Source of the DNA: Oscillospiraceae bacterium
GTDB taxonomy: Bacteria > Bacillota > Clostridia > Oscillospirales > Acutalibacteraceae
Direction: 5' to 3'
Length of the DNA: 35,763 nt
NCBI GenBank assembly: GCA_015065505.1
Contig: SVQE01000026.1
Coordinates: 1 to 35,763, forward strand
Shown: positions 5,809 through 18,416 of the stretch, in pieces
Position numbering within the stretch: position 1 is the first letter of the stretch
Layout of the letters: the number at the start of each line of letters is the position of its first letter
The notes under the pieces: generated by a model
Told to the model about the DNA's origin: nothing
Database searches by the model: none
What the model saw: the letters and a program-made list of their open reading frames with translations, nothing else
Made by a program: the position numbers and the translations under genes

Positions 5809-6155
5809 CAATAAAAAATCTAAAGCTATTCGCTTTTCACGGCGTAAATCCCGAGGAAAAGGAAAACGGGCAGAATTTTTATATTGATGTTGACTACTAT
5901 GTTAATATAATTAAAGCCTGCAAAAGCGATGATATAAACGACACTGTGAGCTATGCAAAGGTTGTTAAGGTTATAAGAGAAGCCTTTACAAGTGATAAGT
6001 TCAATCTTATCGAAAAAGCCGCTCAAACGGTTGCTGATGCGATTTTTGAGAATTTTGAAACCATATACAAGGTTGAAATAACCTTAAAAAAGCCCGAAGC
6101 ACCCGTAAATGCGGAATTTGACTATATGGCAGTAACAATTTTCAGAGAGAGGTAA
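5796..6155 (+). CDS. folB: Dihydroneopterin aldolase
   Basis: FolB cleaves 7,8-dihydroneopterin to 6-hydroxymethyl-dihydropterin and glycolaldehyde. The 119-aa protein has the family motifs LFAFHGVNPEEKENGQNFYIDV split across residues 9-30 (with the conserved Glu), NLIEKAAQTVADAIF, and a C-terminal KKPEAPV strand with the catalytic Lys region. It overlaps folP by 13 bp and is followed 2 bp later by folK. Confidence 0.95.
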   Translation: MDKITIKNLKLFAFHGVNPEEKENGQNFYIDVDYYVNIIKACKSDDINDTVSYAKVVKVIREAFTSDKFNLIEKAAQTVADAIFENFETIYKVEITLKKPEAPVNAEFDYMAVTIFRER

Positions 6156-6157
6156 TT

Positions 6158-6643
6158 ATGCATTATATATTAGCGCTCGGGAGCAATCTCGGAGATAAAA
6201 AGCAAAATCTTGAAAAGGCGATTGAAGCCTTGAATAATATTCCATATACCGATGTTATTAAAACCTCGTCGGTTTATGAAACCGAGCCCGTTGATTATTT
6301 AAGGCAGGATAATTTCTATAACATTGTTATTGAAGTTAAATCCCTGTTTGAGCCAAACGAAATGCTTGGAATATGCATGGGCATTGAATCGGGACTCGGC
6401 AGAATACGCGGAATTAAAAACGGTCCGAGAATAATCGACCTAGATATTATCTTTGCAGAGGATAAGATTATTAAAACCAAAAATTTATCAGTTCCTCATT
6501 TAAGATATAATGAAAGAAATTTTGTTATTTCTCCGCTTCTTGAAATACATCCCGAGGGCGAATTTTACGGAATTAATTTTAAAAAATACATAGAATCCGT
6601 TTCAGACCAGAAAATAAAAACTGTTGATAAAATTTCCGTTTAA
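6158..6643 (+). CDS. folK: 2-amino-4-hydroxy-6-hydroxymethyldihydropteridine pyrophosphokinase (HPPK)
   Basis: FolK pyrophosphorylates 6-hydroxymethyl-dihydropterin using ATP and supplies the substrate of FolP. The 161-aa sequence opens with LALGSNLGDKKQNLEKAI and contains FYNIVIEV, the GLGRIRG loop and the signature GPRIIDLDIIF, then LSVPHLRYNERNFVISPL. A GAGAGG ribosome binding site overlaps the end of folB. It is the last gene of the operon, followed by a strong hairpin at 6672-6721. Confidence 0.96.
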   Translation: MHYILALGSNLGDKKQNLEKAIEALNNIPYTDVIKTSSVYETEPVDYLRQDNFYNIVIEVKSLFEPNEMLGICMGIESGLGRIRGIKNGPRIIDLDIIFAEDKIIKTKNLSVPHLRYNERNFVISPLLEIHPEGEFYGINFKKYIESVSDQKIKTVDKISV

Positions 6644-6671
6644 ATGAATTAATTAACAAAACTAAAAAAGG

Positions 6672-6726
6672 CTCCCTTGCAAATAATAATATTGCCGAAA
6701 GGCGATTATTTGCAAAGGGAGTTTTC
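6672..6726 (+). terminator. Hairpin terminator of the folate operon that contains the next ribosome binding site
   Basis: Arms 6672-6687 and 6705-6721 form a 16-bp stem with a single bulged A, followed by TTTTC. The 3' arm ends in AAAGGGAG, which is also the only ribosome binding site for the small ORF starting at 6730. Forming the hairpin would both stop the transcript and hide that site. Confidence 0.75.
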
Positions 6727-6729
6727 TTT

Positions 6730-6903
6730 ATGAAAATGAACACAACAAAAAACATAATGAAGGGAATCGGCGCAACGCTTGCAGTTTGCTCGGCGGTAAC
6801 TATGATGGCGGCAACAAAAAGCAATACGGGCGCTAAAAAAACAATGAAAAAAACGGCAAGCAAAATTGCCGATGTTGTTGACACCTTTTCTTCATTTATG
6901 TAA
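6730..6903 (+). CDS. Small hypothetical protein (57 aa), hydrophobic patch and basic C-terminus
   Basis: The ORF encodes a 57-aa peptide beginning MKMNTTKNIMKGIGATLAVC, with a short Ala/Val/Met-rich hydrophobic stretch (about 13-29) followed by a Lys-rich tail (KKTMKKTASKIADVV). It resembles the small YtxH-like cationic proteins common in Clostridia, but I cannot name a family with confidence. It has a good AAAGGGAG site 8 nt upstream, buried in the preceding terminator hairpin, and its own terminator downstream at 6906-6936. Its coding nature is supported by that signal set, not by homology. Confidence 0.55.
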   Translation: MKMNTTKNIMKGIGATLAVCSAVTMMAATKSNTGAKKTMKKTASKIADVVDTFSSFM

Positions 6904-6905
6904 CA

Positions 6906-6936
6906 AAAGAGGCAGTACCAAAACGGTATTGCCTCT
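6906..6936. terminator. Bidirectional terminator between convergent genes
   Basis: AAAGAGGCAGTACC and GGTATTGCCTCTTT form a stem with a short AAAAC loop and A/T runs on both sides. It ends the small ORF from the left and the YdeI-like gene from the right. Confidence 0.8.
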
Positions 6937-7476
6937 TTATCCGTAATACTTATCTATTCCGCCGTAGCCTATAATCAGCTTGTTTTCACGCGTTTTTTTA
7001 ATAAAGCTTGCGAGCCTTTTTTCAAATTCCTCGTGTCGTTTTCTTGCAGCGTCAATATATGCAACGCGAATTCTTTTATACGGCTCGGTGAAATTTAAAT
7101 AGTTTTTCCACGCGGTTTCATCCTTTTTTATTTCATCAATAATATCCTCGGGAAAAACAAAGGGTGTGTTTATTAATTCCTCAACCGATTCTCTGATTTT
7201 CGGATGAAGCATATTATTTTCATCAAGCCATATCAAACGCTCGATATTCGGCTGTGAATACGAGCTGCCCTTTCTTCTCGGCGTAAAACGGCGGATGTTA
7301 TGCATTTCATCAAGCGTTCCCGAAACGCCGTCAATCCAGCCGAAGCAAAGCGCTTCCTCAACGGCATCGTTATATGAAACGCTTTTCTCATTTGCCTCTT
7401 TTTCCGCAATCTCTTTTTGACAGCGGGATTTCGTTTTTGATATATGTGTTCCATACATCCATTCTGTCGTTTTCAT
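6937..7476 (-). CDS. N-terminally truncated YdeI/OmdA-family protein, possible pseudogene
   Basis: The conserved part starts at SVSYNDAVEEALCFGWIDG, followed by RRFTPRRKGSSYSQPN and a Lys/Arg-rich C-terminus, all typical of the YdeI/OmpD-associated (COG4430) family. Full members have about 45 further residues with a WLxxNH motif before this point, and those are absent. Instead the frame runs back into the 3' end of the acetyltransferase gene, overlapping it by about 90 bp in another frame. No start codon has a ribosome binding site; the ATG at 7476 is given only as the best guess. A deletion that joined two neighbouring genes would explain this. The product may be non-functional or expressed by translational coupling. 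Confidence 0.6.
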   Translation of the reverse strand: MKTTEWMYGTHISKTKSRCQKEIAEKEANEKSVSYNDAVEEALCFGWIDGVSGTLDEMHNIRRFTPRRKGSSYSQPNIERLIWLDENNMLHPKIRESVEELINTPFVFPEDIIDEIKKDETAWKNYLNFTEPYKRIRVAYIDAARKRHEEFEKRLASFIKKTRENKLIIGYGGIDKYYG

Positions 7477-14866: not shown

Positions 14867-15475
14867 TCACCTCTTGTCAGTGATTAAAAATTTTGATTCT
14901 TTTATAATGTTTTTTATTGCCGAAACCGTTATTGCAATTCCGCAGATAACTGCAAAAAAGCCGTCAACGGTTAGGTTTAAATTATTCAAAAGCATACCCA
15001 TAATTGCAAACAGCGTTATGAAGCAATCCAAAAAGCTGTCGAGCAGCAGCGCCCTGAAAATGGGCGAGGGCATTTTTTTGTTTATAAAATAGAAGAAAAC
15101 GCCTAAAAATATTTTCACGAATATTGTTGCAACAATAATAATCGTATATCGGGCGGAATATGAAATCGGAAGGGGATAGAGTATTCTGTCGACGCCGTTA
15201 AATATAAAGTATAAGCCGCAAACAGTTATAAAAATGCTTATAACAAAATCGGCAAGGCTTTGCGCTCTGTCGGATGCTTTCGAGTTCAGCTTAAGGCTTA
15301 ATGCTATTCCCGCGATTGCAATAACGCAGGCAAGGGTGTCGCCGAGATTATTAATTGAATCACAGTAAATTGCAAGTGCGTTTGAAGCAATGCCGATATA
15401 GAGCTTTATTAAAAATAAAACAAAATTAACAGCACAACCTGTTATTCCTGCCCATATTGCAGGTTTTTTAAGCAT
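14867..15475 (-). CDS. CDF (cation diffusion facilitator)-like transporter, membrane domain only
   Basis: CDF proteins exchange divalent metals for protons. This 202-aa protein has six predicted membrane helices and the two site-A motifs: N42xxxD46 in TM2 (SINNLGD) and D146xxxD150 in TM5 (LLLDSFLD). Zinc CDFs normally have His or Asp at the first position of each motif, so the Asn/Asp set suggests another metal, perhaps manganese. The cytoplasmic C-terminal ferredoxin-like domain (about 80-100 aa) is absent: the protein stops soon after TM6. The ATG at 15475 is chosen; a GTG three codons earlier is possible. It is 4 bp upstream of the metallophosphoesterase gene. Confidence 0.8.
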   Translation of the reverse strand: MLKKPAIWAGITGCAVNFVLFLIKLYIGIASNALAIYCDSINNLGDTLACVIAIAGIALSLKLNSKASDRAQSLADFVISIFITVCGLYFIFNGVDRILYPLPISYSARYTIIIVATIFVKIFLGVFFYFINKKMPSPIFRALLLDSFLDCFITLFAIMGMLLNNLNLTVDGFFAVICGIAITVSAIKNIIKESKFLITDKR

Positions 15476-15582
15476 AATAAACACCGTATATTTTCAGAAT
15501 TATTACCATTATAACATATTTGCTTTTATATTTCTATATAATAAATAACTTATTTTTGTGAATAATATAACGGGTGAATACT

Positions 15583-16077
15583 ATGGAAATTATTTGTGCG
15601 GTTTTATCGTTTTTAAATCTCATTCTGCTTCTTGTTTTACTCTTTAAAAAAGAGCTTTTCAGCCTTTTTTCAAATAAAAGCGCTGTGGTTATTATGCAAA
15701 ATTCAAAAATCAACATCAAAGCGCTGAAAAATGCAGGAATAAGCATTGATGAGCTTATGAGCAGGGCAAGGCTTAGCGGATACTATAATATAGGCGATAT
15801 AGACACTGCAATTCTTGAGCCCTGCGGCAAAATCAGTTTTCTTCCTGCGCCGATGAAAAGAAATCTTAATCCCAAGGATTTCAACTTTGCGCCCGTAAGA
15901 GAGGGAATGAGCCGAGTTATTATTTCAAACGGAAGAATTATTAAAGATAATCTTTTGCTCTCGGGTATCAGCGAAAGCGATTTGTTTAATCTGCTTTCTC
16001 AAAGGGGCAGCAGGCTTGATGATATTGCCATTGCAACCGCAAACGAAGCAGGAAGAATAGATTTTTTCAACAAATAA
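15583..16077 (+). CDS. Single-pass membrane protein with YetF-like (DUF421 C-terminal) domain
   Basis: The 164-aa protein has one N-terminal membrane helix (about 3-25) followed by two repeats of a small alpha/beta domain: VVIMQNSKINIKALKNAGIS then ELMSRARLSGYYNIGDIDTAIL and GKISFLP, and again SRVIISNGRIIKDNLLLSGIS with DLFNLLSQRGSRLDDI. This is the YetF/DUF421 cytoplasmic domain. Normal DUF421 proteins have three membrane helices. GGGTGA lies 5 nt before the ATG at 15583. The function of the family is unclear; it is linked to the membrane of spores and cells in Bacillus. Confidence 0.8.
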   Translation: MEIICAVLSFLNLILLLVLLFKKELFSLFSNKSAVVIMQNSKINIKALKNAGISIDELMSRARLSGYYNIGDIDTAILEPCGKISFLPAPMKRNLNPKDFNFAPVREGMSRVIISNGRIIKDNLLLSGISESDLFNLLSQRGSRLDDIAIATANEAGRIDFFNK

Positions 16078-16118
16078 ATTGATTTTTATATACAATAAGC
16101 GGTAATAGCTCAAATTGC

Positions 16119-16189
16119 TTGACAAAAAAGATAAAAGTAACTATAATTCATATGATTGGTATGTTCATATGTTAGTATCAATCATATGA
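16119..16189 (+). promoter_or_regulatory. Promoter and palindromic operator of the arsR-transporter operon
   Basis: TTGACA (16119-16124), a 17-nt spacer and TATAAT (16142-16147) form an ideal sigma-A promoter. Immediately downstream a perfect 11-bp inverted repeat, TCATATGATTG (16148-16158) and CAATCATATGA (16179-16189), encloses a further CATATG-centred palindrome (16166-16171). It overlaps the transcription start, as expected for repression by an ArsR/SmtB dimer. Confidence 0.85.
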
Positions 16190-16191
16190 GG

Positions 16192-16332
16192 TGACCGGGC
16201 AAAGCTGCGCTTCCCCTCATCCGTCAGCCTTTCGGCTGCCACCTTTTGCTCGCCGCAGACGGCTAACCCCTTTGTCTGCTGCGCAGACATTTCCCCTGTC
16301 AAAGGGAATGCCCCGAGGGGAAGGCAGATAGG
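16192..16332. repeat. GC-rich palindromic repeat inserted in the arsR leader
   Basis: This 140-bp segment has several short hairpins (CAGCC/GGCTG, GTCTGC/GCAGAC, TTCCC/GGGAA, CCCC/GGGG) and is richer in GC than its surroundings. Blocks such as CTTCCCCTC, CGCAGACG and CCCTGTCAAAGGGAATG resemble the repeat family at 3.86, 31.4 and 34.77 kb. It lies between the operator and the ribosome binding site of the regulator gene. Confidence 0.65.
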
Positions 16333-16343
16333 AGATACATATT

Positions 16344-16625
16344 ATGAAAGAACAGGAAATTTTTGATTTAGCAGAATTTTTCAAGGCGTTTTCAGATTCA
16401 ACAAGGGTTAAAATCCTTCTTGCGCTTTTTGAAGAGGAGCTGAATGTTTCGCAGATTGTTGAAAAAATCGGCGTTTCGCAGACAGCGGCATCGCATCAGC
16501 TCAGGTCTTTGAAGCAGAGCCATCTGGTTCGCTGCAGAAGAGAGGGAAAGAATATGTTTTATTCCCTTGCAGACGACCATGTTAAAATAATTATGGATTG
16601 TGCCATTGAGCACATTGAGGAGTGA
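16344..16625 (+). CDS. ArsR/SmtB-family zinc-type metalloregulator
   Basis: This 93-aa winged-helix repressor has the core ALFEEELNVSQIVEKIGVSQ and the recognition helix TAASHQLRSLKQSHLV, then a wing (CRREGKNMFYSL). Helix 5 reads DDHVKIIMDCAIEHIEE and provides D77, H79, H90 and E93, the exact D-H-H-E ligand spacing of the zinc site in SmtB and CzrA. The cysteine motif (CxC) of Cd/Pb sensors in helix 3 is absent. A zinc-responsive (or Co-responsive) repressor is therefore likely. AGGAG precedes the ATG, and the transporter gene starts 3 bp after the stop. It is expected to bind the palindrome at 16148-16189. Confidence 0.93.
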   Translation: MKEQEIFDLAEFFKAFSDSTRVKILLALFEEELNVSQIVEKIGVSQTAASHQLRSLKQSHLVRCRREGKNMFYSLADDHVKIIMDCAIEHIEE

Positions 16626-16628
16626 ATT

Positions 16629-17597
16629 ATGGCAGAGCATAAACACGAACACTCTCACGAGCACGACCATTCCCATAATCATGAAAACTTCGAGCATTCA
16701 AAAAAAGCTTTAATTATCAAGCTTTTTATTGCCGTAGTATTTTTTGCAGCAGGCTATATTGCCGATGAAATACTCTCGGCACCGCTCTACATATATCTGA
16801 GCTGCTTTATAATTTCATATATTGCAGTCGGTTTTGAGGTTGTTAAGGACGCCGTTGAAGATATTTTTGCAGGCAAGGTTTTTAACGAGTGCTTTTTGAT
16901 GAGCATTGCTTCTCTGGGCGCATTTGTTATAGGCGAATACAGCGAGGGCTGTGCAGTTATGCTGCTCTATTCCATTGGTGAATTTATTCACGGCGCGGCA
17001 ATAAGCAAAAGCAAAAAGGCAATCAGAAAAATCGAAAATGAAAGCGGAAATCCCCATCATCACGAGTCGAGCGAAAACGAAAGCTTTATTGCGGCATTCG
17101 CAAAGGTATATACCCCGATAGTCTGCATTATTGCAATTCTTGTTGTTATTATTCCGCCGCTGTTTCTTTATCAGGAATGGAAGGAATGGATTTACAGAGG
17201 ACTTTCGGTTCTTGTTATCGGCTGTCCGTGCGCTATTGTTATTTCTGTTCCGCTCAGCTTTTCGTGCGCTATTGACGCCTGCACAAGGCGCGGAATATAT
17301 GTTTATCACACGAATGCGCTTGAAAAGCTATATAAAAGCGGAAATGTAAGCGAAGGCATTGTTATTGAAAACAACAGCGAGGACAAGCTTTCGTTTGTTA
17401 AAACGGCAGCAAAGAAGGCGGTTGTTATTTCGCGTGAAAATATTGCAGTTGCAATAGGCGTTAAGCTTGTTGTGCTGATTTTAGTTGTTTTTCTCAACCG
17501 GGAGCTGCCCATGTGGCTTGCTGCATTCAGCGATGTCGGCATTTCATTTATTGCAATTCTTAATTCATTAAGGTCGTTGAGGATAAAAACAAAGTAA
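16629..17597 (+). CDS. Catalytic-domain-less P1B-type (Zn/Cd) ATPase membrane scaffold with His-rich N-terminus
   Basis: The 322-aa protein begins with a His-rich tail (13 His in residues 4-23). It then has all eight helices of a P1B-2 ATPase: TM1-2 (27-70), TM3-4 (86-124), TM5 (160-180), TM6 with C199-P-C201, TM7 with K279 and TM8 with D302. These correspond to the CPC, Lys and Asp of the ZntA metal site. The actuator domain is replaced by a short His-containing linker (about 134-155), and the phosphorylation/nucleotide domains by about 30 residues (233-262). DKTGT, TGE and GDGxNDxP are all missing, so it cannot be an ATP-driven pump in the known way. It could be a passive metal conduit, a zinc buffer or a partner of another pump. 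GAGGAG lies before the ATG. There are no stops or frameshifts. Confidence 0.85.
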   Translation: MAEHKHEHSHEHDHSHNHENFEHSKKALIIKLFIAVVFFAAGYIADEILSAPLYIYLSCFIISYIAVGFEVVKDAVEDIFAGKVFNECFLMSIASLGAFVIGEYSEGCAVMLLYSIGEFIHGAAISKSKKAIRKIENESGNPHHHESSENESFIAAFAKVYTPIVCIIAILVVIIPPLFLYQEWKEWIYRGLSVLVIGCPCAIVISVPLSFSCAIDACTRRGIYVYHTNALEKLYKSGNVSEGIVIENNSEDKLSFVKTAAKKAVVISRENIAVAIGVKLVVLILVVFLNRELPMWLAAFSDVGISFIAILNSLRSLRIKTK

Positions 17598-17601
17598 AGC
17601 T

Positions 17602-18324
17602 ATGCAGAAATTATTTATTGATTACACACCCGAAAACGAAATAGTTCTTGAGGGCGAGCAGGCGCGCCATATAGCAAAATCGCTCAGAATGAAAAAGGGC
17701 GATATGTTAACGGTTAACGATTCAAACGGCAGCGATTACGGATGCTCGATAGAAGAAATAACCAAAGACAGCGTTATTCTCAAGGTTTGCTATAAGCAGG
17801 CATCAAACAGCGAGCCCACCTGCAGGGTCAGCATATATCAGGGAAACCCGAAGGGAAGCAAGCTTGAGGATATTATTCAGAAATGCGTTGAGCTCGGCGT
17901 TTTTGAAATAACCCCGGTGCTTACAAAGAGATGTGTCAGCCGTCCCGACGAGAAAAGCGCAAAAAAGAAAACCGAAAGATATAATAAAATCGCCCTTGAA
18001 GCCGCTCAGCAAAGCGGACGGGGCGCAATTCCGAAGGTTAATGATTTAATTTCTTTAAAGCAGGCTGTAAGCGAGGATAACAGCGAGGTTAAAATCGTTT
18101 TCTATGAGGGCGGCGGTCAGCCGCTTAGAAGCCTTGTAAACGAAAACGCTGAAAGCATTTCAATCTACATAGGGCCCGAAGGCGGTTTTGAAAAGGAAGA
18201 GGTTGATTTGATAACCGCAAACGGTGCAGCCGCAGCAACTCTCGGCAAGCGAATTCTCCGCACCCAGACCGCCCCCGTTGCCGCCCTTTCGGCAATAATG
18301 CTGATTACAAAAAATCTTGAATAA
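17602..18324 (+). CDS. rsmE: 16S rRNA m3U1498 methyltransferase RsmE
   Basis: RsmE methylates N3 of U1498 in 16S rRNA using S-adenosylmethionine. The 240-aa SPOUT enzyme has an N-terminal PUA-like domain with EGEQARHIAKSLRMKKGD and a C-terminal knotted domain with GNPKGSKLEDIIQKCVELGV, ALEAAQQSGRGAIPKV, IYIGPEGGFEKEEVD and LGKRILRTQTAPVAAL. It starts 4 bp after the scaffold gene without a clear ribosome binding site, which suggests translational coupling, although the two functions are unrelated. Confidence 0.96.
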   Translation: MQKLFIDYTPENEIVLEGEQARHIAKSLRMKKGDMLTVNDSNGSDYGCSIEEITKDSVILKVCYKQASNSEPTCRVSIYQGNPKGSKLEDIIQKCVELGVFEITPVLTKRCVSRPDEKSAKKKTERYNKIALEAAQQSGRGAIPKVNDLISLKQAVSEDNSEVKIVFYEGGGQPLRSLVNENAESISIYIGPEGGFEKEEVDLITANGAAAATLGKRILRTQTAPVAALSAIMLITKNLE

Positions 18325-18361
18325 ATCTGAGCTCGCAACTCGAAACTCGCAACTCGAAACT

Positions 18362-18416
18362 GAATAATTTAAAATAGCGATTTGCTTTTCTTGCAAATCG
18401 CTATTTTAAATTATTC
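18362..18416. terminator. Very long bidirectional terminator shared by rsmE and ogg
   Basis: Arms 18362-18385 and 18393-18416 form a perfect 24-bp stem with a 7-nt loop. The right arm includes the last five codons and the stop of ogg. Before it lie two tandem CTCGCAACTCGAAA copies (18331-18360), a motif also seen at 9.34 kb. Confidence 0.85.

Follow-up and report, generated by a model that had tools for sequence, protein, structure and literature searches.

The membrane part of a P1B-2 heavy-metal pump has been retained without its ATP-driven motor in a clade of related gut bacteria, which suggests that this part of the pump has taken on an independent life. The gene lies in the window, the stretch of 35,763 nucleotides of an Oscillospiraceae contig (SVQE01000026.1) that was analysed as a whole. 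The reading favoured here, with roughly even confidence and from sequence comparison, is that its 322-residue product, induced by metal, transports Zn(II)-like ions without using ATP. The features around the gene are the following.

14867..15484, minus strand: cation diffusion facilitator (CDF), 205 aa; PF01545, E 1.8e-20 over residues 17-197
15574..16077, plus strand: DUF421/YetF C-terminal-domain protein; PF04239, E 2.3e-24; upstream neighbour at many loci
16119..16147, plus strand: sigma-70 promoter TTGACA-17-TATAAT, 12/12 consensus positions
16148..16189, no strand assigned: inverted-repeat operator-like element right after the -10 box; arms TCATATGATTGGTA / TATCAATCATATGA
16344..16625, plus strand: ArsR/SmtB-family metalloregulator, 93 aa; NF033788, E 2.5e-26; HTH_5
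16629..17597, plus strand: motor-less P1B-2 membrane-domain protein, 322 aa
17602..18324, plus strand: rsmE-type 16S rRNA methyltransferase; PF04452, E 1.9e-50

The ArsR stop codon and the start of the 322-aa frame are 3 bp apart, and 4 bp separate the end of that frame from rsmE. A ribosome-binding site, GAGGAG (16617-16622), stands 6 nt 5' of the ATG, in keeping with the intact frame and good ribosome binding site described in a first-pass annotation of this DNA. The regulator combines the HTH_5 fold with an exact alpha-5 pattern DxH..HxxE (D77, H79, H90, and E93), which was kept in all 31 aligned ArsR rows and which we take to be the zinc-sensor site of SmtB and CzrA; the earlier assignment as a zinc-type ArsR with a D-H-H-E site was thereby upheld.

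A phmmer comparison against the Protein Data Bank matched the 322-aa protein to ZntA (4umv) with an E value of 7.3e-35 in three blocks, residues 60-133, 149-236, and 266-318 corresponding to 156-229, 342-429, and 680-730 of 4umv, the third block being weak by itself (i-Evalue 0.1). Between the blocks, short linkers replace the actuator (A) domain and the P and N domains. The actuator domain with its TGE motif is missing between the TM4 and TM5 blocks; the window protein has no TGE, and a TGE string found in some orthologs, which in L026 and L027 lies inside the short linker, comes with no A domain. The DKTGT motif and the P domain are absent, as is the N domain, with about 16 residues separating ALEKL (230-234) from the TM7 helix (from 251). 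Consistent with this, only positions 106-180 of the 181-position Pfam E1-E2_ATPase profile are covered, and no match to the Pfam HAD-like Hydrolase was found in the protein at E up to 1. The top NCBIfam models are ZntA-type pumps, with scores far under their cut-offs. The loss of the actuator and phosphorylation/nucleotide domains noted at first pass is thus borne out, and the lack of DKTGT means that there is no phosphorylation cycle. With three defining features absent, the protein is by definition outside the P-type ATPases, and annotating such motor-less genes as ATPases would be wrong; if functional, it would act like the membrane half of such a pump.

What is kept is the membrane domain of the P1B-2 group, with eight helices in P1B order and the ZntA membrane fold. 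An AlphaFold2 (AF2) model, built from a shallow alignment of 30 rows of which 13 were full-length pumps, gave a pLDDT of 78.6 and a pTM of 0.74 and contained eight helical membrane segments, with a break at 198-200, at the CPC motif. In Foldseek searches the best PDB matches of the model were ZntA structures, 4umw (E 5.2e-9, TMq 0.68) and 4umv (E 5.2e-8, TMq 0.50), with large rmsd values of 10.7 and 6.7 A, respectively. The ZntA alignment and the model thus agree with the previously proposed eight-helix domain bearing CPC at 199-201, K279, and D302, and the predicted fold is that of ZntA.

The excerpt consulted of a study on PIB-2 pumps (PMC6305203) gives the signatures N(x)7K and DxG(x)7N, and assigns in ZntA the exit to E202, the inlet to E214, the cap to M187 and F210, and the gate to K693, with E184 and D348 as further inlet residues. 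The 322-aa protein carries CPC at 199-201, N(x)7K as N271/K279, and DxG(x)7N as D302/G304/N312. In the phmmer alignment E106 is equivalent to E202, E118 to E214, M91 to M187, Y114 to F210, C199 and C201 to C392 and C394, K279 to K693, and D302 to D714. The residues E106, E118, C199, P200, C201, N271, K279, D302, G304, and N312 are invariant across 14/14 short, 5/5 remnant (the two motor-less forms described below), and 38/38 full-length unique rows, three of the latter coming from outside the locus family. The cap position M91 is variable, being isoleucine in 8 of the 14 short forms. At the two further inlet acids of ZntA, the window protein has C88 (for E184) and A155 (for D348); the D348 position is alanine or serine in the short forms and is non-acidic in the remnant and full-length rows too.

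With a nine-row profile, motor-less proteins were matched in one piece in 19 of the 80 genomes of the genus ([Eubacterium] coprostanoligenes group) at E values of 1.1e-145 or lower, nine of the 19 proteins being themselves rows of the profile. A singleton is therefore ruled out, and the concern that only this genome might have the gene was not borne out. The set comprises 14 short forms (315-357 aa) and five remnant forms (395-406 aa) that retain a scrap of the P domain. Named records of the genus are ruminant-gut and other metagenome-assembled genomes and the isolate E. coprostanoligenes ATCC 51222, whose remnant form is 395 aa long; NCBI files this species under Eubacteriaceae. All 14 short and all five remnant genes are open frames. 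Pairwise NG86 dN/dS ratios, which are rough because dS exceeds 1 in most pairs, were 0.049-0.113 in 13 of 15 pairs of short forms (two saturated), 0.032-0.098 in 9 of 10 pairs of remnant forms (one saturated), and 0.079-0.157 in 10 of 11 pairs of the rsmE control (one saturated). The motor-less gene is constrained as much as its housekeeping neighbour rsmE and is under strong purifying selection, so the ratio near 1 that had been named as a sign of decay was not found.

Wider searches covered 394 genomes of the order, 391 of the class, 398 of the phylum, and 398 of the family at cut-offs of 1e-50 or 1e-45; with such strict cut-offs and at most five candidates scored per genome, these searches can overlook motor-less forms that are distant. 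Five genomes of the family sample passed, two of them motor-less (the window genome and G004) and three being pieces of 660-678-aa frames. Plasmid-borne relatives were discarded: 1494 plasmid records matched, but no match covered 80% at a single site, and the 10 listed reached up to 63%. No description of a motor-less P1B membrane-domain protein was found among the matches listed in the open-licence literature.

The protein is derived from a ZntA-type pump that lay beside ArsR at this locus. At all 14 short-form loci ArsR lies directly upstream and rsmE directly downstream. Among the 19 full-length genus loci fetched, an ArsR match lies upstream in 16 and rsmE directly downstream in none, and 15 share the common upstream neighbours, DUF421 and/or CDF-phosphoesterase. 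This common synteny indicates that the short form arose at this very locus by excision of the motor and is not a new gene elsewhere. As full-length pumps hold the locus in sister species, the simplest account is that an ancestor lost the motor by deletion and that the shortened product was kept. In trees of the neighbouring phosphoesterase, g4, and ArsR genes, the short-form genomes (12, 7, and 14 rows) fell on one side of a branch with SH-aLRT values of 99, 99, and 96, respectively, as vertical descent predicts. The five remnant genes occupy a different locus with no ArsR match, at least 560 bp of upstream DNA being available for three of them (L030, L155, and L152, the last with 562 bp).

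A membrane-core tree of 67 deduplicated rows, from which rows with less than 60% model cover and most Bacillaceae and Pseudomonadota (all but seven of L110-L147) were omitted and in which the bootstrap was not quite settled, recovered a short clade (100/100) and a remnant clade (100/99) as sisters (96/88). Both belong to a 55-row group (100/99) that otherwise consists of 36 full-length rows. A full-length row, L084, is their sister with weak support (89/50), so the exact branch point of the motor-less forms among the pumps is not fixed. The outgroup rows are all full-length except two distant bare forms, indicating that full length is ancestral. The short forms of all 14 species fall into a single clade on a long stem (0.51), so the deletion is old. 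The first-pass annotation had raised a full-length ATPase at this locus in close relatives as a sign of recent deletion; such pumps do occur there, at the 15 loci mentioned above, but the 14-species clade and its stem do not fit a recent event. The remnant forms keep the distal part of the P domain (GKGINDIPMLEAAD..AVGED in L030) and lack both DKTGT and the A domain. In an AF2 model of the ATCC 51222 protein (pLDDT 76.8, pTM 0.72) this scrap consists of alternating strands and helices, and it may still fold as a small relic.

Decay into a pseudogene or collapse of the assembly is the least probable of the explanations considered. The full-length pumps at the locus in sister species are what would speak for it, together with one stop counted in the G009 match; this stop lies at the end of the match, where the gene itself terminates (frame 6125-7096). 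It is opposed by the open frames of all 19 motor-less genes with their dN/dS of 0.03-0.11, by the descent of the short forms in one clade with the stem described, and by the isolate with its remnant form; the recovery of short forms from 14 separate assemblies, in addition to this isolate, contradicts a collapse. The earlier argument against simple decay is thereby strengthened.

The short clade has also gained residues. Relative to 35 full-length rows (the 38 without the three from outside the locus family), Cys, His, Asp, or Glu was gained at eight positions after residue 20, namely D78, C88, H121, E136, H143, C213, D216, and H227, each in 13 or 14 of the 14 rows (among them the possible ligands C88, C213, and D78 in 14/14, and H121, D216, and H227 in 13/14), and such residues were lost at four positions. 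Position 88 is also cysteine in one of the three full-length rows from outside that family. H121 lies one turn from E118, and D216 lies 15 residues below CPC toward the cytosol. C88, H121, D216, and H227 are possible ligands at the cytosolic side, where C88, E118, H121, and D216 would form a new site. The five remnant forms have N88, Q121, G216, and N227 instead, so the gained inlet residues are not needed for every motor-less form.

In the transport mechanism proposed on this basis, metal would enter at a remodelled cytosolic mouth made up of E87, C88, E118, H121, and D216, pass through the C199/C201/D302 site, and leave past E106, with K279 serving as a built-in gate. The likely drive would be an ion gradient, with H+ exchange at E106, D302, or K279; this is preferred to a passive pore because an open pore admits zinc when outside zinc is high. 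ArsR would free the operon when metal is in excess, and probably also a second full P1B-2 pump in trans. Since a zinc-induced open zinc pore would be harmful, a coupled carrier or a partner role is favoured over a passive conduit. Several points count against a carrier. ZntA is thought to move zinc through ATP-driven E1/E2 switching, and the ability of the isolated domain to switch would have to be assumed. The conservation of the path could equally serve structure or hetero-assembly. The absence of the gained inlet residues from the five remnant forms, and of CPC from a further relative (G883), also weighs against it, as do the cysteine at position 88 in a full-length row, the non-acidic residue at the D348 position, the variable cap, the missing E118 of one distant bare form, and the shallow alignment and large rmsd values of the model.

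The same ligands could serve a membrane metal buffer or sensor that binds zinc at the CPC/D site and the His-rich tail and does not move it, a reading that we consider improbable. The ligand residues are retained, new ones have been gained, and the N-terminus has 5-14 histidines within its first 40 residues in the 14 unique short rows. The tail is not an addition, as had been supposed at first pass, but ancestral: the 11 N-termini of full-length relatives shown are all His/Cys-rich and mostly longer. Moreover, the exit residue E106 and the gate K279 vary no more than the ligands do. A pure storage protein would not obviously need these two, and their conservation favours movement of the metal over its storage.

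More weight, though still that of an unlikely alternative, is given to an accessory or regulatory subunit, in which the short protein pairs with, or hands metal to, a second full P1B-2 pump under the same ArsR. The window ArsR is the sole ArsR match in its own genome at E 0.001. That genome also encodes a second, full-length P1B-2 pump of 636 aa (C74), which has an ArsR-type operator, ATATGAACAATCGTTCATAT, 3' of its own promoter, and no ArsR match was found beside it; a separate HMA-like metal-binding ORF lies between this promoter and the pump. Across 11 second-pump loci from eight short-form and three remnant-form genomes, the own genome included, an operator-like match was found upstream in 9/11, an HMA-like ORF in 9/11, and a TTGAC-TATAAT promoter in 7/11, all counted with loose patterns and no chance control. 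ArsR, the short protein, and the second pump may reasonably be taken from these sequence patterns to form one regulon, and the sole ArsR and the operator on the second pump make the subunit idea more concrete. Co-regulation is not interaction, however, and genomes with remnant forms, where the motor-less gene has no adjoining ArsR, likewise contain the second pump with this type of operator. In addition, a purely regulatory role needs no conservation of the full permeation path.

ArsA is an ATPase that acts on the membrane transporter ArsB, and by analogy an ATPase motor encoded elsewhere could drive the membrane domain in trans. Conservation of the stalk extensions that flank the missing domains speaks for this, with A230, L231, E232, L234, and K236 and then A261, K262, and K263 invariant in six short rows. 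A scan for DKTGT codons in the 89%-complete genome nevertheless gave four matches and no lone motor, two lying in complete P1B pumps and the others in frames just 17 and 51 aa long, and the annotated neighbours include no motor gene. Such a split pump is very improbable.

Motor loss was also met outside the genus. G282 of the same order (378-aa protein) and G640 of the same class (353-aa protein; L171 8148..9209, plus strand) each encode a bare membrane domain that retains CPC, K, and D, one of the two being without E118. In the G640 protein a His-rich insert separates TM3 from TM4. No ArsR-like ORF was seen beside either gene. The idea that the motor-less forms would always adjoin ArsR therefore holds for all 14 short forms but fails for the five remnant and these two distant forms. 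No bare orthologs were found among E 1e-20 matches in the 60 genomes around each; the second of these searches yielded two paralogous P1B relatives in G903, 573 and 569 aa long and 63% identical (L196 1100..2821 and L197 5782..7491, both minus strand). The pair has no A domain, DKTGT is changed to DKSVV or DKSAL, the P/N region is kept, and CPC, K, and D are retained. A 548-aa P1B relative in G883 (L217 5614..7258, plus strand) has no A domain either, with DKNGI for DKTGT and LPV for CPC; it may represent a further stage of inactivation.

Placing the short, remnant, and two distant bare forms in one clade was rejected in an AU test (p-AU 0.0017), in which the distant rows are long branches; a clade of the two distant proteins was not rejected (p-AU 0.37). 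Repeated loss of the motor in Clostridia is therefore likely, but not proven given the long branches of the two distant rows. As a broader and more tentative proposal, to which we lend clearly less than even confidence, the P1B-2 membrane domain might have been turned, repeatedly in related Clostridia and with its cytosolic mouth rebuilt, into a secondary transporter of a new class. The intermediates of such a path would still be alive as dead A-less pumps, P-remnant forms, and bare membrane domains.

P-type pumps are taken as wholly dependent on a phosphorylated motor, and we know of no P1B membrane domain that works as a secondary transporter. With the P1B-2 Zn/Cd pumps ZntA and CadA the 322-aa protein shares the eight-helix domain, CPC, N(x)7K, DxG(x)7N, the exit and inlet glutamates, ArsR/SmtB control, and its locus in sister species; it differs from them in lacking the actuator, P, and N domains and DKTGT, and in its new Cys, His, and Asp residues on the cytosolic side. 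The membrane part of ArsB can likewise work with or without its ATPase, though its fold is unrelated and its substrate is As(III)/Sb(III). CDFs are secondary transporters in any case. One of them, CdfX of Cupriavidus metallidurans, has no cytoplasmic domain and exports zinc, and in the excerpt consulted of its report (PMC11580412) it provides a precedent for the proposed carrier, as a metal exporter reduced to its membrane part, metal-induced and near a P1B pump gene; it differs in having the CDF fold. TMEM94 also has a P-type-like architecture with no ATPase activity detected (PMC12134183), but it is human and retains pump-like cytoplasmic domains, and the excerpt consulted mentions no heavy-metal CPC site. 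A conserved motor-less domain with a full metal path would show the transport unit uncoupled in nature, and, if ATP-free flux is true, it would constitute a new transporter class. It would offer a case for the interconversion of primary pumps and secondary carriers, and a compact natural protein in which to study how the membrane part moves by itself.

The leader of the operon shows several further features. The two arms of the operator-like repeat in the window are 93% complementary across 14 nt, and a comparable promoter lies within 240 nt 5' of ArsR at 12 of the 14 short-form loci and at 12 of the 13 full-length ones examined. Of the 14 short-form leaders, 11 (all but L029, L150, and L154) contain an inverted repeat whose arm includes CATATG; it is longer than the ATGAAC..CAT site that stands at the corresponding place in all 13 full-length leaders. 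The arms diverge between species yet remain complementary in three, the window (TCATATGATTG/CAATCATATGA), L025 (CCTCATATGAGTGGT/ACCACTCATATGAGG), and L151 (TTCATATGTTTG/CAAACATATGAA), whereas in L153 they break this pattern. Such diverging yet complementary arms are odd for a fixed protein-binding site, and the repeat might reflect a hairpin with which the transcript begins; no Rfam match at the gathering score was found in 15500..18400. The G+C-rich stretch at 16190..16330, between the operator and the ArsR start, has 9-nt inverted repeats at 16210-16218 and 16315-16323. Its 18-base core pattern is absent from the other fetched loci except two that overlap the window, and it looks like a small inserted repeat element.

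The two genes on the upstream side were also compared. The CDF at 14867..15484, an upstream neighbour at many loci by synteny, has no cytoplasmic C-terminal domain and in this resembles CdfX; its matches at short-form and full-length loci alike are frames of about 200-218 aa. The DUF421/YetF neighbour measures 138-193 aa in short-form species compared with 223-277 aa in full-length species, so that two adjacent membrane-protein genes, this one and the pump, are shrunken in one clade.
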